This document shows positions 18,602-20,387 of a stretch of DNA of 64,000 nucleotides, piece after piece. A program made the translations under genes and the position numbers. The notes under the pieces were generated by a model. The model was not told the DNA's origin. It was given only the letters and a program-made list of their open reading frames with translations, and made no database searches. This stretch comes from Bacteroidales bacterium (GTDB lineage: Bacteria > Bacteroidota > Bacteroidia > Bacteroidales > VadinHA17), in assembly GCA_025454755.1 (NCBI GenBank), contig JALONV010000009.1, forward strand, positions 17,789-81,788. The letters run 5' to 3'. The stretch's first letter is position 1; each line of letters opens with the position of its first letter.

Positions 18602-18994
18602 ATGATGAACAGACTCGCTATCAGAAAAATCCTTGTTTTATCATTTAGCTTCTTTATCACTATTACATTTTGCGAAAGCCGATCATATGGCCGTACAATA
18701 GTTACAGGCCATTTGATTAGCATGTCAGACATGCCGGTTCAACAAAAGAAGTCAAAAGTAAGTAGACCCAAATCAGCCAGGAAAGTACAGAAGGAAGCGG
18801 ATAAGAAAGAAAAAAAGCAGGATAAGGATTATGCAAAGTTCGTAAAGGAGAATCAGAAAAGGTCGATTGAGATACAAACGCCTGAGGTTAAGGCCCGTAT
18901 GAAGCAGAACGTTAAAAATGCCAATGCAAACTACAAGGCAAAAAAGAAGAACAATGCTTCCAGGACAAAACAGGCCGGGAAAAAATACAGGTAA
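18602..18994 (+). CDS. Small secreted Lys-rich hypothetical protein
   Basis: ORF 130 aa, N-terminal signal-like segment followed by a highly basic, low-complexity mature region. Confidence 0.5.
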   Translation: MMNRLAIRKILVLSFSFFITITFCESRSYGRTIVTGHLISMSDMPVQQKKSKVSRPKSARKVQKEADKKEKKQDKDYAKFVKENQKRSIEIQTPEVKARMKQNVKNANANYKAKKKNNASRTKQAGKKYR

Positions 18995-19043
18995 AGACAA
19001 ATAAAAAAATATGATTTTGTAAACATCTTATTTTCAGGTTTTT

Positions 19044-19075
19044 TTTGGATTTATTTTAAGAATTTATTATATTTG
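19044..19075 (+). promoter_or_regulatory. Bacteroidetes sigma-A type promoter of greA (TTTG-N20-TATATTTG)
   Basis: TTTG at 19044-19047 and TATATTTG at 19068-19075, 20 bp spacing. Confidence 0.7.
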
Positions 19076-19079
19076 TCTT

Positions 19080-19119
19080 ATGAAGAGTTCCGGAAACCCC
19101 GGAATTCTTCATGTTTTTT
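19080..19119 (+). terminator. Intrinsic-terminator-like hairpin in the greA leader
   Basis: ATGAAGAGTTCCGG-aaacc-CCGGAATTCTTCAT (14 bp, one G-U) followed by GTTTTTT. Confidence 0.75.
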
Positions 19120-19135
19120 AATATAACAGCTTACC

Positions 19136-19609
19136 ATGCCGGAGGTTTTATACAATACGGAAGAGGGTCTTCAGAAGTTGAAAGACGAACTTGAACAGCT
19201 CAGGGCTGTTGAAAGACCTATGATAGCAAGGATGTTATCCGATGCAAGGGCTCAGGGCGACCTGACCGAGAATGCCGAATATGCTGCTGCAAAAGAGGCA
19301 CAGGCTATGCTTGAGGCAAAGATTGCAAAGCTTGAAGATCTTATTGCCAGGTCAAGGATTATTGACGAATCTAAAATTGACACCAAAACGGTAAGAATAC
19401 TTAACAAGGTCAGGATCCGGAACAAGGTGAATAACACTGTAATGGAGTACCAGCTTGTCCCGGAAAGCGAAGCTAACCTGAAACTGGGCAAAATTGCCGT
19501 TAGTTCACCTATTGCCCAGGGACTCATTGGCAGGAAAGTAGGAGAGGTGGTGGAGATAAAAGTCCCGTCAGGCATTATTCCTTTTGAGATTGTTTCTATC
19601 TCACTATAG
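19136..19609 (+). CDS. greA: Transcription elongation factor GreA
   Basis: LYNTEEGLQKLKDELEQL, ARAQGDLTENAEYAAAKEAQ, SPIAQGLIGRKVGEVVEIKVP. Confidence 0.95.
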   Translation: MPEVLYNTEEGLQKLKDELEQLRAVERPMIARMLSDARAQGDLTENAEYAAAKEAQAMLEAKIAKLEDLIARSRIIDESKIDTKTVRILNKVRIRNKVNNTVMEYQLVPESEANLKLGKIAVSSPIAQGLIGRKVGEVVEIKVPSGIIPFEIVSISL

Positions 19610-19627
19610 TTATTTGATATTAGTCAT

Positions 19628-20026
19628 ATGGCATCTGTTTTTACAAGGATCATCAATGGGGAAATACCTTGTTATAAGGTGGCTGAAGATGACAGGTATT
19701 TTGCATTTCTCGATATCAATCCGCTGAGAGAAGGCCATACTCTTGTTGTGCCCAAACAGGAAACTGATTACATTTTTGATCTTGACGACGACACGCTTTC
19801 AGGAATGATCATGTTCTCGAAAAAAGTCGCCGCTGCAATCAGCGCAGCAATACCCTGTGCCAGGATCGGAGTGGCTATTCTGGGCCTTGAGATTCCGCAT
19901 GCACATATTCACCTGGTGCCTATGAATTCAATGGAGGATGTGAATTTCAAGAATCCAAAGCTGAAACTTACTCCGGAAGAATTCAAAGCAATAGCAGAAA
20001 AAATCAGTTCGAAAATAATACTATAG
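19628..20026 (+). CDS. HIT family hydrolase
   Basis: FTRIINGEIPCYKVAEDD, HTLVVPK, and a C-terminal HAHIHLVP motif. Confidence 0.92.
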   Translation: MASVFTRIINGEIPCYKVAEDDRYFAFLDINPLREGHTLVVPKQETDYIFDLDDDTLSGMIMFSKKVAAAISAAIPCARIGVAILGLEIPHAHIHLVPMNSMEDVNFKNPKLKLTPEEFKAIAEKISSKIIL

Positions 20027-20062
20027 ATACTTCGTTGCACAAATTGAACTACATTTCAAGCT

Positions 20063-20274
20063 GAGGAGATTCCTCACTTCACTTCGTTCCGTTCGGAATG
20101 ACATCGAATTTTTAAAGAGAAGGGGACAGAAGCGGCGATTCGCAGGCTGATTTATTATAGATCAAATTTTCTTGCGAATAGCCGCTTCTGTCCTATGATC
20201 CTAAAAGAGCTACTGTCATTTCGAGCGCTTTGGGCACCGAAGCTTTAGCGAAGGTGACCAGCGAGAAATCTCCT
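20063..20274. repeat. Nested inverted-repeat intergenic element
   Basis: Inner arms GGACAGAAGCGGCGATTCGCA (20124-20144) and TGCGAATAGCCGCTTCTGTCC (20173-20193), 20/21 complementary; outer imperfect arms GAGGAGATTCCTCAC...GGAATGACA and TGTCATTTCGAGCG...GCGAGAAATCTCC. Confidence 0.8.
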
Positions 20275-20387
20275 TAATTCATAAGGAGTTATCCATTATA
20301 CGATTGCTTTTTTATAAGCAATTTCAAAAAAACATGGAGGTGGTTCTTTCAAATTTCTTATCTTTATATAATAATTCAGCTCGCTGC

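Follow-up and report, generated by a model that had tools for sequence, protein, structure and literature searches.

The greA gene of this Bacteroidales bacterium, which lies in a window of 64,000 nucleotides (the whole stretch of DNA analysed), is preceded by a terminator-like hairpin abutting its predicted promoter, and the best explanation, which we regard as quite probable, is that of an intrinsic attenuator situated in the leader of greA itself. Probably, many polymerases would stop after about 40 bases, and the supply of GreA would be set by the fraction passing this point.

The greA leader and its genomic neighbourhood

The elements of the locus are the following.

19044-19047, plus strand: -33 element TTTG, recognised in the sequence and separated by a 20-nt spacer from the -7 box (consensus in PMC7366714)
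19068-19075, plus strand: -7 box TATATTTG (TAnnTTTG), recognised in the sequence, with the register given in PMC9723704
19080-19093, plus strand: 5' arm of the hairpin, ATGAAGAGTTCCGG, with the conserved core GAAGAGTTCCGG (sequence, fold and family alignment)
19094-19098, plus strand: hairpin loop AAACC (sequence)
19099-19112, plus strand: 3' arm of the hairpin, CCGGAATTCTTCAT (sequence and family alignment)
19114-19119, plus strand: T-run of six T preceded by G19113, the predicted termination zone of an RNA of about 35-40 nt
19136-19609, plus strand: greA, 157 aa (Pfam PF03449 GreA_GreB_N, 1e-25; PF01272 GreA_GreB, 2e-20)

Inspection of the sequence gives a 14-bp stem with a 5-nt loop and a single G-U pair at G19087-T19105, and 16 nt between the end of the T-run and the greA ATG at 19136. 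A sequence-only reading of the window had described the promoter TTTG-N20-TATATTTG (19044-19075), the stem at 19080-19112, the GTTTTTT and the 16-nt gap, all of which are exact to the base, and had called the hairpin terminator-like. The fold agrees with this description: the leader RNA reaches -22.7 kcal/mol, against -7.7 (sd 2.2) in shuffled sequences, none of which was equally stable (0 of 200), and this z of -6.7 excludes a chance origin of the hairpin. A stable, G+C-containing hairpin with a T-run immediately after it is what defines an intrinsic (Rho-independent) terminator, here predicted from sequence, and it sits between the inferred greA promoter and the start codon, as a leader attenuator does. 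Over 9 kb, terminator-like sites total 9 for 8.2 expected by chance, the greA leader site being the strongest of them, so that the argument is carried by stem strength and conservation rather than by the mere presence of such a site. A search of positions 18800-19700 with the Rfam 15 covariance models gave no match up to E = 1.

The start site of greA was taken from the promoter consensus. The Bacteroidetes consensus includes a -33 TTTG (PMC7366714), and in a flavobacterium transcriptome study the sigma-A box TAnnTTTG occupies -12 to -5 (PMC9723704); this published register puts G19075 at -5, and +1 would thus be A19080, with which the stem begins. Of the 73 hairpin leaders of the own family, nearly all have an exact -7 box 1-7 nt 5' of the stem, 0.04 per leader being expected in shuffled leaders; the 102 leaders from families elsewhere in the class gave 71 boxes at distances of -4 to 25 nt. 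The earlier proposal that transcription starts at the hairpin base is borne out by this register and by the box spacing kept in the family, and a product of about 40 nt is indeed what the inferred +1 and the position of the T-run predict. The 16-nt gap, as had also been argued, leaves no room for a second promoter between the T-run and the ATG.

From its sequence, the product of 19136-19609 is firmly identified as GreA, a factor that rescues transcription, with the catalytic acids D42 and E45 present within GDLTENAEY. A second, distant Gre-like gene of the same genome (29% identity) has no such leader hairpin. The upstream gene 18602-18994, co-oriented with greA and ending 85 nt from the stem, encodes a small protein, rich in lysine and hydrophobic at its N-terminus, for which Pfam gave no match; the place directly 5' of greA is taken in related loci by either of two different conserved gene families, which form clusters of 40 and 52 loci. 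On the other side, a gene coding for a HIT-domain protein (19628-20026) begins 18 nt past the greA stop codon and may therefore share the attenuated transcript. Dispersed repeat pieces, matched 25 times in the own genome, lie in the intergenic region 3' of the HIT-domain gene (20060-20290), together with a long, imperfect inverted repeat whose arms (20090-20153 and 20164-20227) are 70% complementary.

Conservation and covariation of the hairpin

The greA loci compared were drawn from public genomes and from samples at the level of family, class and phylum. The 130 nt 5' of each greA were analysed with a hairpin finder (a stem of at least 7 pairs with no more than one small defect, an energy of -8 kcal/mol or lower, and 5 or more T among 8), which also detects E. 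coli GraL, and the controls were neighbouring Bacteroidota genes whose upstream sequence is 80 nt or longer. In the own family, hairpin and T-run are present in 73 of 76 distinct greA leaders, compared with 4 of 123 neighbouring genes. Leaders from other families of the class were positive in 102 of 114 cases, further Bacteroidota loci in 29 of 36, and other classes in 18 of 20. Taken over all Bacteroidota sampled, 222 of 246 greA leaders carry the element, against 16 of 344 neighbouring genes, and Markov-shuffled greA leaders were positive in 8 of 252 cases. The Fisher test of greA leaders against controls gives p of about 1e-111, computed without correction for relatedness, on counts that come from related, non-independent genomes in a sampling that spans many families. 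By hand tally, at least one positive leader occurs in 52 of 58 families within the class and in 18 of 19 outside it; negative leaders (about 10%) include several in family f6 and both members of f17, a family outside the class. This phylum-wide distribution implies that the greA leader hairpin is old in Bacteroidota.

Specificity within the own genome was assessed by pattern and model searches. The pattern GAGTTCC-N3-16-GGNATTC has 5 matches there, compared with 3 for a reversed control, and only the match at greA has a long paired stem. Of 25 genomes from the same genus, 24 have a match of the covariance model R1 at the greA leader, as do several further families of the order, and there is one strong match per genome. 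A dispersed repeat was rejected on these grounds, the pattern being effectively unique in the own genome. Four weak R1 matches away from greA (E 0.002-0.01) look like generic terminators. One hairpin with a weak R1 match away from greA, AAAGCTTTCCGG...CCGGGAAGCTTTTTTTT, is common to two related genomes (G000:C147:28077-28116, L310, and L311), and with an ATG within about 20 nt downstream it is possibly another leader terminator.

The sequence-only reading had looked to conservation and covariation of the stem in related greA leaders, and both are found. In an alignment of 55 distinct leaders, all of the own-family type, pairing in the 13-pair stem amounts to 90.9%, and 29 cells are changed on both sides against 12.1 in shuffles (0 of 500 reaching this number); sliding the stem register lowers nearly every pairing measure. 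The outer core pair alternates between G-C (27 leaders) and A-U (21 leaders). Other positions hardly vary: ATTCTT in the 3' arm is invariant in all 55 aligned leaders, GAGTTCC is almost fixed, and the G19087-U19105 wobble is kept in 54 of the 55, though A-U is one step away. The distance from GAGTTCC to ATTC, for its part, varies from 9 to 16 nt among leaders. As judged from the alignment, such a near-fixed family sequence is more than a plain terminator would need.

Further families within the order and class share a related form, AAAGAGTCCCG...CGGGATTCTTT, and elsewhere the same position is occupied by hairpins of unrelated sequence, such as CAACGCC...GGCGTTG and GCAAGACTATG...CATAGTCTTG. 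The T-run directly 3' of the stem is retained across families, even with an unrelated stem sequence. On these comparisons, the general constraint is on position, pairing and T-run, and that on sequence is lineage-specific. Separate conserved greA leader hairpins are also seen in other families (L138, L140 and L144; L148 and L150), for example AAAGTAACGGTCTC...GTGACCGTTACTTTG, which suggests a lineage-specific sequence constraint within each.

Weighing of alternative readings

The hairpin could be an ordinary terminator of the co-oriented gene 18602-18994, whose end lies 85 nt from the stem, the promoter-like sequence being incidental. This reading, which the sequence-only account had named as its own refutation along with a lack of conservation, was rejected and is very unlikely, since the hairpin tracks greA whatever the upstream gene. 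In own-family loci the same hairpin stands 5' of greA behind two unrelated upstream gene families, and where the nearest upstream ORF is divergent from greA it is still found in 17 of 25 loci with the strict finder. Moreover, an exact -7 box lies at a fixed distance 5' of the stem, and a greA promoter cannot fit in the 16 nt past the T-run. To judge from these loci, the hairpin is conserved with greA, independently of the upstream gene. An element belonging to greA might instead be a 5'-terminal hairpin stabilising the mRNA or shaping its translation. A 14-bp stem at +1 is suited to 5'-end protection, and greA leaders are AT-rich, so the T-run could be just a part of such a leader; however, its retention after stems of unrelated sequence in different families, and the rarity of the combination of hairpin and T-run in neighbouring genes (16 of 344), make this role improbable.

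The near-fixed family sequence, placed at +1 to +33, is also what would be expected of a conserved dyad serving as DNA operator for a repressor at the start site. We hold this to be exceedingly improbable and disfavour it, since the arm spacing is variable (9-16 nt between GAGTTCC and ATTC), the arms covary, the fixed G-U spoils DNA symmetry but leaves RNA pairing intact, and other families differ in sequence yet retain the hairpin. Somewhat less remote, albeit still unlikely, is that the main product is the RNA of about 40 nt itself, a trans-acting small RNA using the greA promoter, with secondary effects on greA. Sequence fixation beyond pairing needs is in favour of such an RNA, and E. coli GraL has been reported to act in trans too (PMC2965389, PMC6829880). 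Nevertheless, the conserved letters sit in a stable stem, with no free seed, and between families it is the structure that stays and the sequence that changes.

Proposed mechanism and relation to known greA leaders

In the preferred reading of an attenuator in the leader of greA, transcription would begin at about A19080, and the first 33 nt or so of RNA would form the strong hairpin, followed by the U-run (+35 to +40). Many young polymerases would terminate there and release an RNA of about 40 nt, and greA, perhaps together with the HIT-domain gene, would be transcribed by read-through complexes only. We infer that this termination, with its short RNA, takes place in vivo. Since the stem begins at the predicted +1, its 5' arm has no RNA ahead of it with which to pair in a classical antiterminator. 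A 13-codon frame running through the hairpin starts with an ATG at the predicted +1 (19080-19121; MKSSGNPGILHVF). Attenuation by a leader peptide was rejected, because this short ORF is not conserved in relatives: an ATG is there in only 27 of 73 family leaders, with inconsistent lengths. In view of the missing room for an antiterminator and of the unconserved leader peptide, read-through would most likely depend on polymerase state, for which GreA itself, NusA/NusG and nucleotide levels are candidate inputs. If that state includes GreA, the leader would act as a GreA homeostat. Feedback by GreA on its own leader is the least certain part of this scheme, perhaps slightly short of an even chance; it is made plausible by D42 and E45, the catalytic acids needed for autoregulation in E. 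coli. Bolder, and in our opinion rather doubtful, is the idea of an ancient, phylum-wide GreA homeostat, in which the +1 hairpin would be read by polymerase and GreA without antiterminator RNA, the family-specific hairpin sequence (G-U wobble, ATTCTT) would be recognised, and an abundant RNA of about 40 nt would be released.

With regard to known systems, GreA of E. coli makes termination in its own leader more frequent, for which its catalytic acids are required, and this feedback depends on both the sequence and the structure of the leader (PMC6829880); the same source refers to Potrykus 2010 for the GraL/greA leader terminator. The locus described here resembles GraL in that the greA leader holds, near the promoter, a predicted intrinsic terminator from which a short RNA is expected, and in the intact catalytic acids of GreA, and both leaders are detected by the same finder. 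In contrast, the GraL hairpin extends from +19 to +48 with the AUG at +150, whereas here the hairpin starts at about +1 and the AUG lies at about +57. The E. coli segment from +1 to +18, needed for full feedback, has no counterpart; the arrangement typical of GraL, a terminator at +19 to +48 behind a 5' segment, is thus absent, no sequence similarity was noticed, and the promoter class differs. Leaders of greA/rnk with terminators have been predicted in Proteobacteria, bacilli and clostridia, Bacteroidetes not being named (PMC2965389). They likewise place a terminator in the leader of a greA orthologue, but show a clear antiterminator alternative, for which the stem from +1 leaves no RNA here. 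The structured 5' leaders of Flavobacterium psychrophilum (PMC9723704) are comparable in being conserved in Bacteroidetes without an Rfam match; the section describing them names pheA, hisG, ftsY, acsA, alaS and rimP, and greA is not among these. In the literature searched, consisting of main texts with few subscription papers among them, we found no report of a greA leader or terminator for Bacteroidetes. We file the putative Bacteroidota start-site terminator as a variety of greA-leader attenuation, since gene and principle are the same, with differences in placement, absence of an antiterminator, promoter class and sequence.

Regulation of greA through a leader terminator was already known from experiments in E. 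coli, and predicted for Firmicutes and other Proteobacteria. Its predicted occurrence in nearly every sampled Bacteroidota family, at +1 and with unrelated sequence, suggests a general selection for attenuating the level of GreA. A minimal terminator devoid of antiterminator would offer a test system for the effect of a cleavage factor on a very young elongation complex, and its natural variants make testable a question raised in E. coli, namely, how GreA increases termination.
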